From Kaiparowitsia implicata GSE-PSE-MK54-09C (GTDB lineage: Bacteria; Cyanobacteriota; Cyanobacteriia; Elainellales; Elainellaceae), in the NCBI GenBank assembly GCA_019359435.1, contig JAHHHI010000062.1:62001-126000 (forward strand): DNA of 64,000 nt, in the 5' to 3' direction. The position numbers and the translations under genes were made by a program. Positions 59,177 to 64,000 of the stretch are shown here, piece by piece. The notes under the pieces are model-generated. The model ran no database searches. It was given only the letters and a program-made list of their open reading frames with translations, and was not told the origin of the DNA. Within the stretch, counting starts at the first letter, position 1. Each line of letters starts with the position of its first letter.

Positions 59177-61111
59177 ATGAGTACAGTGGATTTTTTAGAT
59201 CGGTATGATGTGGTGGTGGTGGGTGCAGGGCACGCAGGCTGTGAAGCGGCCTTGGCCTCGGCGCGTCTAGGCTGCCGCACGCTGCTGCTCACCCTCAACC
59301 TAGATAAAATCGCCTGGCAGCCCTGCAACCCGGCGGTCGGTGGCCCTGCCAAATCTCAGCTGACGCACGAAGTCGATGCCCTGGGGGGGGAAATCGGCAA
59401 GATGGCCGATCGCACCTACCTTCAGAAGCGGGTGCTAAATGTGTCGCGAGGCCCAGCCGTATGGGCGCTGCGGGCGCAAACCGATAAGCGCGAATATGCC
59501 GCCGTGATGAAAGGCATTGTGGAAACCCAGGAAAACCTCACCGTGCGCGAAGGTATGGTGACGGATTTAGTGCTGGGACAGCACGATGAAGTGATTGGCG
59601 TCGAGACCTATTTTGGCGTGGCGTTTGGCTGCACCGCTGTAGTGCTGACCACGGGCACGTTTTTGGGAGGGTGCATTTGGGTTGGCAATAAGTCAATGGC
59701 CGCCGGGCGCGCTGGAGAATTTGCTGCAGTCGGTTTAACAGAGACGCTGAGCCGCCTCGGGTTTGAAACCGGACGACTCAAGACTGGCACCCCAGCCCGT
59801 GTCGATCGCCGCTCCATTAACTTTGACGTGCTAGAACGGCAGCCTAGCGATGCTGAGGTGCGCTGGTTTAGCTTTGACCCGCAAGAATGGCTGGTGCGTG
59901 AGCCCATGGACTGTCACCTTACCCGCACGACTGCCGAAACCCATCGAATTATTCGCGAAAACCTCCATTTATCTCCCGTCTATGGGGGCTGGGTAGATGC
60001 GAAAGGGCCCCGCTATTGCCCTAGCATTGAAGACAAGATTGTGCGCTTTGCGGATAAAGAGAGCCACCAAATTTTTCTAGAGCCAGAGGGGCGCGATATC
60101 CCCGACGTGTATGTGCAGGGGTTTTCAACCGGGTTACCGGAGTCGATTCAGCTGGCCATGCTGCGATCGCTCCCAGGGTTAGAACAATGCGCCATGCTGC
60201 GCCCCGCCTATGCCGTGGAGTATGACTACCTGCCCGCCACCCAGTGCTACCCCACTCTCATGACCAAAAAAATTAATGGGCTCTTCTGTGCCGGGCAGGT
60301 CAACGGCACAACTGGCTATGAAGAAGCCGCAGCTCAGGGGTTAGTAGCAGGCCTCAACGCGGCGCGCCTAGTGCAGGGCAAAGAGCTAGTCGTCTTTCCC
60401 CGTGAGCAAAGCTATCTTGGCACGCTGATCGACGACCTCTGCACCAAAGACTTGCGAGAGCCCTACCGGATGCTGACCTCTCGCTCGGAATATCGGTTAC
60501 TGCTGCGGTCAGATAATGCCGATCAGCGCCTGACGCCCTTAGGACGTGAGATTGGGTTAATTGGCGATCGCCGCTGGAGTCTGTTTCAGCACAAACAAGC
60601 CCAAATCAGAGCCGAGGCCGAACGCCTCCACGCCACCCGAATTAAGGAACTGGAGCCCATAGGTCAACGCATTATCAGCGAAGCTCAGCAGCCCATTAAA
60701 GGATCAATTACCCTAGCAGAACTGTTGCGACGCCCCGGTTTCCACTATGGGGATCTCGTTGCGTACGAACTGGGGAATGGGGTGCTGCGTCGTGACGTGC
60801 GCGAAGCGACAGAAATTGAGATTAAGTATGCAGGCTACCTGCATCGGCAACAGGCGCAAATTGATCAAATCTCCCGCCAGTCCCATCGCGCGCTCCCGCC
60901 CGATCTCAACTATCACGCCATTGACACCCTTTCAAAAGAGTCGCGCGAGAAGCTGGCAACCGTTCGTCCACTCACCATCGGGCAGGCCAGCCGCATCGGC
61001 GGGGTAAATCCTGCCGATGTGAATGCGCTGATCTTACACCTCGAAATTCAGGCCCGGCAGCGAGCCACTCACGCGTCTGACCGCAACCCGGCAAACGCGG
61101 CAACTAGCTGA
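59177..61111 (+). CDS. mnmG: tRNA uridine-5-carboxymethylaminomethyl modification enzyme MnmG
   Basis: FAD-dependent tRNA wobble-uridine modifier (GidA), working with MnmE; 644 residues. The dinucleotide motif [18 protein letters not shown] is at about 12-29, and [20 protein letters not shown] follows. The C-terminal domain has [20 protein letters not shown] and [19 protein letters not shown]. The start ATG at 59177 gives [12 protein letters not shown]. mnmE is not adjacent. Confidence 0.97.
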
Positions 61112-61446
61112 TACAGCCCTGCATCTGAAGCCAAGGGGGCTGGTTTTAGACATTTTGGGATCTGCTGCAAGATTGAGTGATCGCTTTTTAGAAGGATGCG
61201 ATACATTTAGGTGAAATGTTGTCTGATGCGGCTAAATGTCCTGATATATCAGCGTTGTGTAGTTTGCGCTGGCGTTCTGGAAGTGTAGCTGTGCAGCACA
61301 GTATTCAAGCCAAGTCAGTTCAAGCCCAGTGATTGGATGATTTGGTTGGATTAAGGTGCAGTCGATAGGCGATTCTCTCCGAGACAGCAACGCCGAACGC
61401 TGCTCCTAGCCTGATCTTGACTCGACCTGCAAGAGCGTTGTCACCT
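61112..61446. other. gene-free spacer
   Basis: About 335 bp between mnmG and the next forward gene. I see no gene, repeat or clear terminator here. Confidence 0.5.
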
Positions 61447-62496
61447 ATGTCTCAAGACGCAAACCTATCCCCTACCCCAACAAATTCTGAGCCTTCCTTT
61501 GGGGCGATCGAGCCTGCGACCCTTACCATTGAACGGGAACAAGCTGTAGCCTCAGCCTCTCAGCAGTTTGCTGATGATGCGGCCCATCAGCTGATGGATG
61601 AATTATTTGGCGATGTGGAGCAGGTGCTGGGGGTGGATGTGTCTCTGCCTCGCGAGTCGGTTGATCCCATGGATCTGCCTCCAATGTCGTTGGCGATCGC
61701 CGGATTGTTACCTAGCATTACTGAACCCACGGAAGATGAGACTGCTGAAAACGGGCTAGATGCTACCGATGCGGCTGATATTGCCGCCTTGGGTGAACCA
61801 GAAAGCAAGCAGGATAACGTCTGGGGGCGATCGCTTGACCAATGGCTGATGGCATTGGCGGTCATTTCCATCGCTGCTACCGGGCTAATTTGGTGGGTGA
61901 TGCAGCGTCAAGGGCAACCCTCCACCGCCGAAGTCGCCACCACTGGGGAGACGTTACCCGCAGGCGATCGTGAGTTTTTGAGCTATATGGAGCGATCGCT
62001 CGTAGTACTAGATCAAAAAACTGAGCAACGCCCATCCGAGTCAGATAGCTTGCCCAATATCTCAGTTGCGGCGGCCAATAGCCCTACCGTGCTGGAGCGC
62101 GTCTACGTACCTATTTACCAGCCACCTCAGTCCACCGCAATGGCCCCTGTGCCGATTCCTGCGCCCACTACCTTGCCCCAGCCCCAATCTCAAATCGCTG
62201 CGTCAATCACCGCTCCCAATGCTCCTGCTGCTCCTACGCCAGAGCCAAATACCGGGGATCAAACGGCGGCGGTGATCCCCAACATCACCCCTGTGGTCAA
62301 TCACGTGCTGATTGGGGTGCTGGAACTGGGCGATCGCTCTGCGGCACTATTCGAGATTAACGGCGTGCCCCAACGAGTGCAGATGGGAGAGAGCGTCGGC
62401 TCTAGCGGGTGGATGTTGGTTTCTGTCAGCAATGACGAAGCCATCGTGCGCCGCAACGGAGAAGTTCGCTCTATCTACATTGGGCAAACGTTCTAG
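61447..62496 (+). CDS. single-pass membrane protein with GspC/PilP-like C-terminus
   Basis: A 349-residue protein. The N-terminal ~130 residues are acidic and cytosolic; one membrane helix follows (WLMALAVISIAATGLIWWV). A Pro/Ala-rich extracytoplasmic linker (about 190-280) leads to a 65-residue C-terminal domain, VLIGVLELGDRSAALFEING, then QRVQMGESVGSSGWMLVSV, ending EVRSIYIGQTF. That last part resembles the small beta-barrel of GspC/PilP-type secretion and pilus proteins. Start ATG 61447 is preferred over a frame opening at 61417. Family not firmly assigned. Confidence 0.65.
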   Translation: MSQDANLSPTPTNSEPSFGAIEPATLTIEREQAVASASQQFADDAAHQLMDELFGDVEQVLGVDVSLPRESVDPMDLPPMSLAIAGLLPSITEPTEDETAENGLDATDAADIAALGEPESKQDNVWGRSLDQWLMALAVISIAATGLIWWVMQRQGQPSTAEVATTGETLPAGDREFLSYMERSLVVLDQKTEQRPSESDSLPNISVAAANSPTVLERVYVPIYQPPQSTAMAPVPIPAPTTLPQPQSQIAASITAPNAPAAPTPEPNTGDQTAAVIPNITPVVNHVLIGVLELGDRSAALFEINGVPQRVQMGESVGSSGWMLVSVSNDEAIVRRNGEVRSIYIGQTF

Positions 62497-62595
62497 GCCG
62501 TCATGTTCCCATTGTTGTTATGGAGCATCTGTCAAGCGCTAGTTCTTCCTAGTTCTTAATAGAGTTCTAAACAGGCAACCCTTGACAGCGGTCTC

Positions 62596-62732
62596 ATACC
62601 AAATCCGAATTCTACATCCCCGGTTTCACAACTGCTCATAGCACAAGGCTTTTAGTCGGAATTAATGACACGCCCTAGGGACGCATGGCATTCGACTTGC
62701 CCAACCGAGGATAACCAAAGAGGATTTGATAT
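62596..62732. repeat. MITE-like element
   Basis: ATACCAAATCC (62596-62606) and GGATTTGATAT (62722-62732) are inverted ends (10 of 11 match) bounding 137 bp with no gene. The ends resemble the ATATCAAGTC ends at 53662-53754. It fits a small non-autonomous insertion element; no transposase is present. Confidence 0.45.
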
Positions 62733-62801
62733 CCTAACCCCTAGTGGAGCAATTTATCTGGGGTCTTTGGTTGTATTGAACCTGAGTTCCGGATAAGCTC
62801 A

Positions 62802-62846
62802 AACCCTTAATGTGCTGTGCGCGACGCGCACAGCACATTAAGGGTT
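62802..62846. repeat. perfect 21-bp stem, GAC loop
   Basis: Left arm 62802-62822 begins AACCCTTAATGTGC and right arm 62826-62846 ends GCACATTAAGGGTT; all 21 pairs match with a three-base loop GAC. Confidence 0.93.
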
Positions 62847-62883
62847 TTGGGGCATCGCGCGTCGCGCGATGCCCCAAAACCCT
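62841..62883. repeat. perfect 20-bp stem, GTC loop
   Basis: Left arm 62841-62860 begins AGGGTTTTGGGGC and right arm 62864-62883 ends GCCCCAAAACCCT; all 20 pairs match with loop GTC. Its first six bases are shared with the right arm of the previous stem, so both cannot be fully formed at once. Confidence 0.93.
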
Positions 62884-63258
62884 CTCAACCCGAACTGACG
62901 TTATTAGAAGCTCACATTTCTCGACTCTCAGCTTGGGCCTAAGGGGGGGGATGGGACGCTGCGCAACATGCCGGACTCAGTGTGCACAGTGCATAAAGGG
63001 TTGAGCTTATCCCGAAGATTCACAACCCTTTAGTCCGCTACATGGCCTGATACGGCTATGGGGCATCCGCCTAGACCATAGCCGCCATGGATTCGGTTCA
63101 GTATGTGGCTTGCCATGTTTTTTACTTAAACTGTAAATAATCTCCGTAGTTTCCGGGCATTCTAGATCGACGAGTTTCGGTTTATGAATGCAGAGTAGGG
63201 CGATCGCCCTACCGCATCTAGGGCCGATTAACAGGTGCCATCTACGCGGAGTCAATCT

Positions 63259-64000
63259 ATGTCAAATCAAGTCTTACGCATTCTGCGTGACAGCTACGTG
63301 AAGCGTCGCCCAGAGCATTTAGGCCACCTGCCCGACCATGAAAAGCACATTGTTCGTGCAGGTACAGAATATCCTATTGCATCCTATGCCTGGGCAGATT
63401 CTGCAGGTGACTTTGATGAACACATTAAGTTTGCATTAGCCGATCAAACCATCTCAGGCTTCAACACCTGGTTTATTTTCAACCGCCATGCAGAAGTGAT
63501 TTCTAATGACAGCGTTGTGTATCCCTTAGAAGAGCAGGCGGCTATTCAGCGCTTAGTTATTACCCAAGCCACGCTACTCAAACGCCGTCCAGTGCTTTCA
63601 TCAGAGCTATCAGCAGAAGAGACTGTATCGGTGGCGCCAGGCACTACCTTTGAGCTACATTCCTACGCCTATGCAGACACCCAAGGCGGGTTTAGCGACC
63701 ATATCCGCATTGCAATTGGTCGTCCAGAGGAATATGTGCAGGGTTTAAGCACTTGGTATGTATATAAAGCCCATGCTCAGGTGGAGTTTGATAAGTCGGT
63801 GGTGTATCCCATTACAGATGAGGCCCTGCCGCCCTCTCGCCCAGTATCTCCTACCCCAGATCCTATCCCGTCACTGCGTCCCACACCCACACCCAGCCCG
63901 TCTTTGGGTACACCGTCACCCAACCGCCCATCCATCGCATTGCCAGGGCGCGGGCTCGTGTTTTTGAATGAGCCGATTTTGCCCAAGGGCAACTTTACCT
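63259..64000 (+). CDS. protein with two tandem domains, truncated at window end
   Basis: The reading frame starts at ATG 63259 (GGAG seven nt before it) and is open to the window edge: 247 codons. Two related ~85-residue repeats are clear: residues 5-90 (ILRDSYVKRRPEHL, SYAWADSAGDFDEHIKFAL, GFNTWFIFNRHAEV) and 98-185 (ITQATLLKRRPVLS, SYAYADTQGGFSDHIRIAI, GLSTWYVYKAHAQV). A Pro/Ser/Thr-rich linker (about 190-220) follows, then GLVFLNEPILPKGNF, the start of a further domain. In related cyanobacterial proteins such repeats precede cell-wall hydrolase domains, but the catalytic part lies outside the window. No signal peptide. Confidence 0.75.
   Translation, partial: MSNQVLRILRDSYVKRRPEHLGHLPDHEKHIVRAGTEYPIASYAWADSAGDFDEHIKFALADQTISGFNTWFIFNRHAEVISNDSVVYPLEEQAAIQRLVITQATLLKRRPVLSSELSAEETVSVAPGTTFELHSYAYADTQGGFSDHIRIAIGRPEEYVQGLSTWYVYKAHAQVEFDKSVVYPITDEALPPSRPVSPTPDPIPSLRPTPTPSPSLGTPSPNRPSIALPGRGLVFLNEPILPKGNFT

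Follow-up and report, generated by a model that had tools for sequence, protein, structure and literature searches.

How long, perfect hairpins arise in DNA and how they remain perfect is an open question, and it is posed by a short segment near the right-hand end of the 64-kb window (the whole stretch of Kaiparowitsia implicata DNA analysed here, 64,000 nucleotides). The two longest perfect hairpins of the window overlap there: H1 (62801-62847), whose 23-bp perfect arms (62801-62823 and 62825-62847) flank a single central A; and H2 (62841-62883), whose 21-bp perfect arms (62841-62861 and 62863-62883) flank a single central T. Neither hairpin is assigned to a strand. They share the seven bases 62841-62847 and have the minimal loops GAC and GTC, so the pair of overlapping hairpins described in the original prediction is real. 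No hairpin with arms of 12 bp or more was present in order-2 Markov sequences as long as the window. Folding z-scores against shuffled sequences were -9.9 as RNA, and -11.6 as DNA for the enclosing 122-bp element. The shared bases constitute a segment X' (AGGGTTT, 62841-62847, forward strand) that can take as its partner either the left copy of a segment X (AAACCCT, 62801-62807, forward strand), to give H1, or the right copy (AAACCCT, 62877-62883, forward strand), a direct repeat of the left one, to give H2. The layout of the element is therefore X-h1-X'-h2-X.

The earlier statement that the locus codes for nothing is borne out, the sole open reading frame across the element being a mechanical one of 64 amino acids with no gene-like signs. 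No intrinsic terminator (a stem followed by a T-tract) was found in 62400-63300, and no Rfam family was matched within 60000-64000. For the upstream neighbour (61417-62496) the match to type II secretion protein C (PF11356) is weak and falls below the cut-off, and mnmG/gidA lies at 59177-61111 of the window.

Boundaries of the element and its copies in the genome

The hairpins had been placed in a 222-bp unit with inverted ends. A search of the K. implicata genome (6.72 Mb in 109 contigs, a draft) with positions 62771-63035 as query returned about 40 scored copies, 94-98% identical, none of which continued beyond query position ~139; what repeats is the left 122-124 bp. The 222-bp boundary proved wrong because two copies, one intact and one decayed and inverted, had been taken as a single element. 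The intact copy is a 122-bp MITE at 62780-62901 on the forward strand, with terminal inverted repeats (TIRs) at both ends and 95-98% identity to the best-scoring copies. Its left TIR (62780-62797, forward strand) is ACCTGAGTTCCGGATAAG, the family consensus being ACCTGAGTTCGGGATAAG; its right TIR, likewise of 18 bp (62884-62901, forward strand), is CTCAACCCGAACTGACGT, with the consensus CTTAACCCGAACTGACGT; and the two TIRs are identical at 15 of 18 positions. The decayed second copy lies in inverse orientation at 62928-63016 on the reverse strand, and aligns reversed to the whole MITE, albeit with decay, with a score of 59, where 200 shuffles reached 35 at most. It is the source of the supposed outer end: the inverted ends exist (62787-62809 and 62994-63016, with 87% identity), but they are not the ends of one unit, since the far one belongs to this decayed inverted copy.

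Counting of end patterns with at most two mismatches gave 169 left ends and 176 right ends, with 0-1 hits per strand for reversed control patterns, so that the genome houses roughly 170 MITE copies, counted as end sites. The copy search proposed in the original prediction, now run on the whole genome, thus reveals some 170 copies in place of the single sequence without relatives that would have suggested a local accident. Individual reading of 106 of the ~170 copies showed that 78 match the window copy in length (122 bp plus one duplicated target base), and have ACCTGAGTTCGGGATAAG as their left and CTTAACCCGAACTGACGT as their right boundary. One copy (L124) is 246 bp long, H2 and the right TIR being separated by ~120 bp of foreign sequence that forms a hairpin of its own; this is possibly a nested insertion.

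The 106 also include fusion forms, 85-86 bp long, and twelve copies of 45-48 bp (one target base included). Loss of the sequence between the direct repeats X...X (AAACCC...AAACCC) would remove both hairpins and yield a 47-bp form, with the right copy of X at its junction, while deletion between GCGCG...GCGCG would fuse one arm from each hairpin to give the forms of 85-86 bp. Several collapsed copies are flanked by target duplications of their own, which implies that they were either formed in place or are still able to move.

Target duplications and genomic placement

Exact target duplications of 6-9 bp flank 77 of the 106 copies (45 are of 6 bp and 28 of 7 bp), compared with ~0.03 copies expected by chance, and nearly all have the form T(A/G)N2-3TA. 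Copies with a base other than A just before the left TIR show a matching change in the right flank (L111, L117 and L123). The duplication around the window copy has decayed: its left half, TATTGA (62774-62779, forward strand), is no longer identical to the right half, TATTAGA (62902-62908, forward strand). When the element and its duplication were removed in silico, 4 of 72 copies were found to interrupt an open frame, the rest being intergenic. On the basis of simple longest-ORF gene calls, convergent gene gaps hold 28 of 64 copies, against 6 of the 47 gaps of the window (p=0.0007), and in tandem gene gaps the MITE shows no preference of orientation (13:13). Often the target duplication starts with TAA, TAG or TGA, and for some copies a stop codon is no more than a few bases away; a second copy of the stop codon could accordingly be made on insertion, and the gene would stay intact.

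IS982-type ends and probable mobilisation of the MITE

Genes for IS982-family transposases are present in this genome (PF13612; NF033520 at 213 bits, the cut-off being 130), and the IS982-family insertion sequences (ISs) L159, L160 and L224 carry TIRs of the MITE type; the same 18-bp left end is found on IS982-family ISs of this genome. Two 979-bp ISs in the genome have the ends ACGTGAGTTCGGGATAAG ... CTTAACCCGAACTGACGT, the second of these being the exact right end of the MITE. In Trichocoleus sp. FACHB-40 a 965-bp IS982 has the same ends as the MITE and is flanked by exact TATTTA duplications, which are of the MITE target type. Termini held in common with IS982 ISs, together with the exact TATTTA duplication in Trichocoleus, identify the element as an IS982-type MITE: it is short, non-coding and multi-copy, with 18-bp TIRs common to autonomous-type IS982 and with target duplications. 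The earlier suggestion of a mobile palindromic repeat is thereby upheld. Beyond the TIRs the MITE is unlike IS982, with matches at 5 of 21 subterminal positions, and derivation from IS982 by internal deletion was rejected because the interior is unmatched and only the TIRs agree.

An IS982-family DDE transposase would recognise the 18-bp ends ACSTSAGTTCGGGWTAAG and move the non-autonomous MITE in trans, and insertion at T(A/G)N2-3TA would then duplicate 6-7 bp. On this proposal, which draws on the termini, the duplications and the matching IS, the 122-bp element has probably been moved by the transposase of a larger IS. An intact IS982 transposase was not seen in this draft genome, where most copies contain stops and the best has no in-frame N-terminus; nor did searches with PF13612 and with protein sequences find an IS982 transposase in two genomes that contain relatives of the MITE, M55_K2018_004 and FACHB-8. 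In view of these absences, current mobility is no more than possible.

Relatives in other genomes

Full-length relatives, each of exactly 122 bp, occur in Synechococcales cyanobacterium M55_K2018_004 (83-86% identity) and in Leptolyngbya sp. FACHB-8 (70-74% identity). These represent two other genera of the same family, and each contains at least ~100 copies. The stems of these relatives are largely different in sequence, yet ~98% paired. A covariance model of the MITE gave strong hits in three genomes only of the host family; the weaker hits examined were for the most part chance matches, collapsed forms of 46 bp or hairpin repeats of other kinds. A plasmid search with the window element gave no match.

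The right end CTTAACCCGAACTGASGT recurs across genome contigs in at least 106 stretches, nearly all of them cyanobacterial among the matches listed. Pseudanabaena has a 145-bp element in which two different hairpins adopt the same overlapping arrangement, with GGGCTTT as X, and also a 63-bp collapsed form; the Pseudanabaena sequences L219, L298 and L318 have the usual right end and other hairpin sequences. Comparison of these sequences suggests replacement of hairpins within one MITE lineage. Nostoc, Calothrix, Fischerella, Chroococcus and others have elements of 101-133 bp that share the same ends and lack a strong hairpin. The left subterminal 21 bp is common to the hairpin MITE and these hairpin-less elements (14-18 of 21 positions, using the own-genome consensus; shuffle p <=0.0003), whereas similarity in the central part is near background. 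On the simplest reading, the right arm of H1 seems to derive from an old left subterminal MITE motif by inverted copying.

A second MITE family, with the unrelated ends CAGTAGATCGCAAA, is found in genus g5, and also contains double hairpins; two of the three perfect cases show an overlap, of 4-6 bases. Its elements, with ends CTCAGTAGATCGCAAA ... TTTGCGATCTACTGA (L328:1459-1602, L329 and L327; genomes G005-G008 and G017), are mostly 126-134 bp long, with some 20-180 end sites in each genome, and close pairs of ends ~44 bp apart resemble collapsed forms.

The IS982 on a plasmid of Pseudanabaena sp. ABRG5-3 was considered as a matched parent and rejected, as it has the different ends ACCTAAGTTGCT. 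An intact-looking IS982 transposase gene, encoding 276 amino acids and likewise with the ends ACCTAAGTTGCT, lies at L352:11831-12661 (NZ_AP017563.1 111831-112661) between two pieces annotated as MBL-fold hydrolase, and this IS982 may interrupt one MBL-fold hydrolase gene. The 18-bp IS982-type end was also met in records labelled as non-cyanobacterial: L225, L301, L320 (Methylococcaceae MAG), L229 (Glaciecola MAG) and L264 (Methylococcales MAG). In L225 it belongs to an element of 206 bp flanked by a direct repeat. Mis-binning is a possible source of such ends in these MAGs.

Variation in the stems and loops

Covariation was assessed by aligning, without gaps, 24 diverse copies drawn from three genera, the helices being counted separately over common columns. 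In H1, 98.3% of cells are paired over the three genera and 12 of 22 pairs show two-sided change; in H2, 96.9% of cells are paired and 11 of 20 pairs show such change; and for both helices, 18 and 20 of 35 pairs have changed two-sidedly, transversions included, although the copies are related by descent, so that neither these stem counts nor the loop counts below represent independent events. The covariation score was 0.41, falling to 0.04-0.08 when partners were slid by 1-3 columns. Rare two-sided pairs numbered 12, where independent hits should have produced ~0.03, and rare one-sided changes in the stems are half as frequent as rare changes in the element ends (p=0.0015).

The three copies of segment X change in concert. 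In five copies AAACCCT/AGGGTTT/AAACCCT has become AAAGCCT/AGGCTTT/AAAGCCT, and on a finished plasmid of Pseudanabaena ABRG5-3 GGGCTTT has become GGACTTT at all three X positions. In copies of 125 bp the inserted bases come as matched pairs, GGAGGCACC/GGTGCCTCC. Loop alleles tend to be accompanied by their reverse complement (32 of 49, against 18 expected; p=0.0002), the pairs being GAC/GTC, GGT/ACC, CCG/CGG, GAA/TTC, AAA/TTT, GTT/AAC and GTA/TAC. Copies identical in the remaining 119 bases have GTC loops in 13 cases and GAC in 7, or GAA in 3 and TTC in 1, with the proviso that most of the genomes are drafts, whose assembly may have mixed short repeats.

These patterns can be accommodated if the palindrome folds during replication, so that one arm serves as template for its partner. 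Any change in an arm would then be copied to the other arm and to all three X segments, and the loops would flip to their reverse complement. Two-sided changes and inverted loops have been proposed as footprints of template switching (PMC8794818), and template-switch mutations in quasipalindromes are known in E. coli (PMC7202029). The combination of two-sided changes, no excess of G-U mismatches and reverse-complement loops points to self-templating at the level of DNA rather than to selection on RNA. From the patterns of variation we infer that arm-to-arm copying in replication, by template switching, is the main means by which the hairpins are maintained; similar patterns could arise from selection for a cruciform, or from conversion between inversely oriented copies. 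The strongest evidence for maintenance of short stems by template switching has itself been termed circumstantial (PMC8794818). The RNA hairpins considered there resemble the MITE in their two-sided changes and loop inversions, but they lie in rRNA and miRNA genes, whereas the MITE is a DNA transposon of many copies, in which the arms measure 20 bp and one segment is shared three ways.

Weighing of alternative explanations

The joint explanation that we favour, to which we assign a probability of roughly 0.75, is that the element is a MITE mobilised in trans by IS982, and that the perfection of its overlapping hairpins is maintained mainly at the level of DNA. It is possible, though on balance unlikely, that selection keeps the hairpins instead, either because a DNA cruciform is favoured or because a protein, of the host or the transposase, recognises DNA in its folded state; unpaired mutants would then fail to transpose, and only compensated copies would spread. 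This would fit the constant length of 122 bp and the ~98% pairing over three genera, as well as the recurrence of the overlapping layout in the 145-bp Pseudanabaena element and in the MITE family with different ends. It fits poorly with the hairpin-less 47-bp forms, whose own target duplications show that hairpins are not strictly required for presence at a site; and such selection alone does not predict the rare two-sided changes, or pure inversions of the loop between otherwise identical copies. A role as structured RNA, also raised in the original prediction, would have the element act near gene ends as a stabiliser of mRNA 3' ends, as a terminator or as a small RNA. The very stable fold and the excess of copies in convergent gaps speak for it, but that excess is equally explained by avoidance of promoters and genes. 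If the RNA strand were under selection, G-U mismatches should outnumber A-C, and they do not do so consistently (9:6, 12:20 and 22:9 in three genomes, or 43:35 in total). Given also the even orientation in tandem gaps and the failure to find either a T-tract terminator or an Rfam match, we regard this role as improbable, and the earlier suggestion of it as unsupported.

Hairpins promote polymerase switching in vitro, and the genomes are drafts, so that the pairing and loop flips might be thought artefacts of PCR or of short-read assembly of a repeated palindrome. Such artefacts cannot account for the divergence of stems between genera, and the finished ABRG5-3 plasmids hold copies with exact flanking duplications and with the three-way change in X, which makes this a very improbable account. 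Tandem palindromes that are extragenic and of high copy number also call to mind REP/BIME-type repeats, moved by a RAYT (HUH tyrosine) transposase. This reading is contradicted by the 6-7 bp target duplications and by the 18-bp TIRs common to an IS982 DDE element, and there is no GTAG/CGTC tag at the foot of the MITE hairpins; we consider that it has almost no chance of being correct.

Comparison with known elements and significance

The closely comparable MITECca01 of Cardinium cOegib (PMC9769881) is, like the present MITE, non-coding, with IS982-type inverted repeats, and its 169 copies are mostly intergenic and outnumber the parent IS. It differs in its length of ~240 bp and its occurrence in one lineage only, and the available text of that report mentions neither a double hairpin nor cross-genus covariation. 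Nezha (Zhou 2008, as cited in PMC10969869 and PMC3049150) is also a cyanobacterial MITE and is set beside the 122-bp element here by description only; its proposed parent is ISNpu3-like, according to PMC3049150. Tagged REP/BIME palindromes are likewise extragenic and of high copy number, cyanobacteria included, but as portrayed in PMC3733652 they have a GTAG/CGTC tag and an association with RAYT, and are without TIRs or target duplications of the MITE kind. QMITE, BOX, RUP and Correia-type MITEs share with our element their small size, IS-like ends and foldable transcripts, but overlapping internal palindromes with a three-way segment are not described for them in the available text of PMC10969869 and PMC3733652. 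In the open-access literature we found no description of an overlapping double hairpin combined with three-way concerted change and with inversion of loops across genera.

It is tempting to go further and to propose, tentatively and at somewhat less than even odds, that X-h1-X'-h2-X is a self-propagating DNA architecture, which would have arisen repeatedly across MITE families by serial template switching; intrastrand copying would keep its shape while the sequence turns over, and the architecture would aid persistence or transposition. Recognition of the MITE also explains palindromes that are easily mistaken for RNA genes or terminators, and provides a defined cyanobacterial pair of MITE and IS982 that could be used in transposition assays. 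The hundreds of palindrome copies, with their precise bounds, subfamilies, hairpin-less kin, collapsed forms and reverse-complement loops, make up a natural data set that would allow single events to be read and the rate of arm-to-arm copying to be estimated: a natural record of the birth and maintenance of palindromes.
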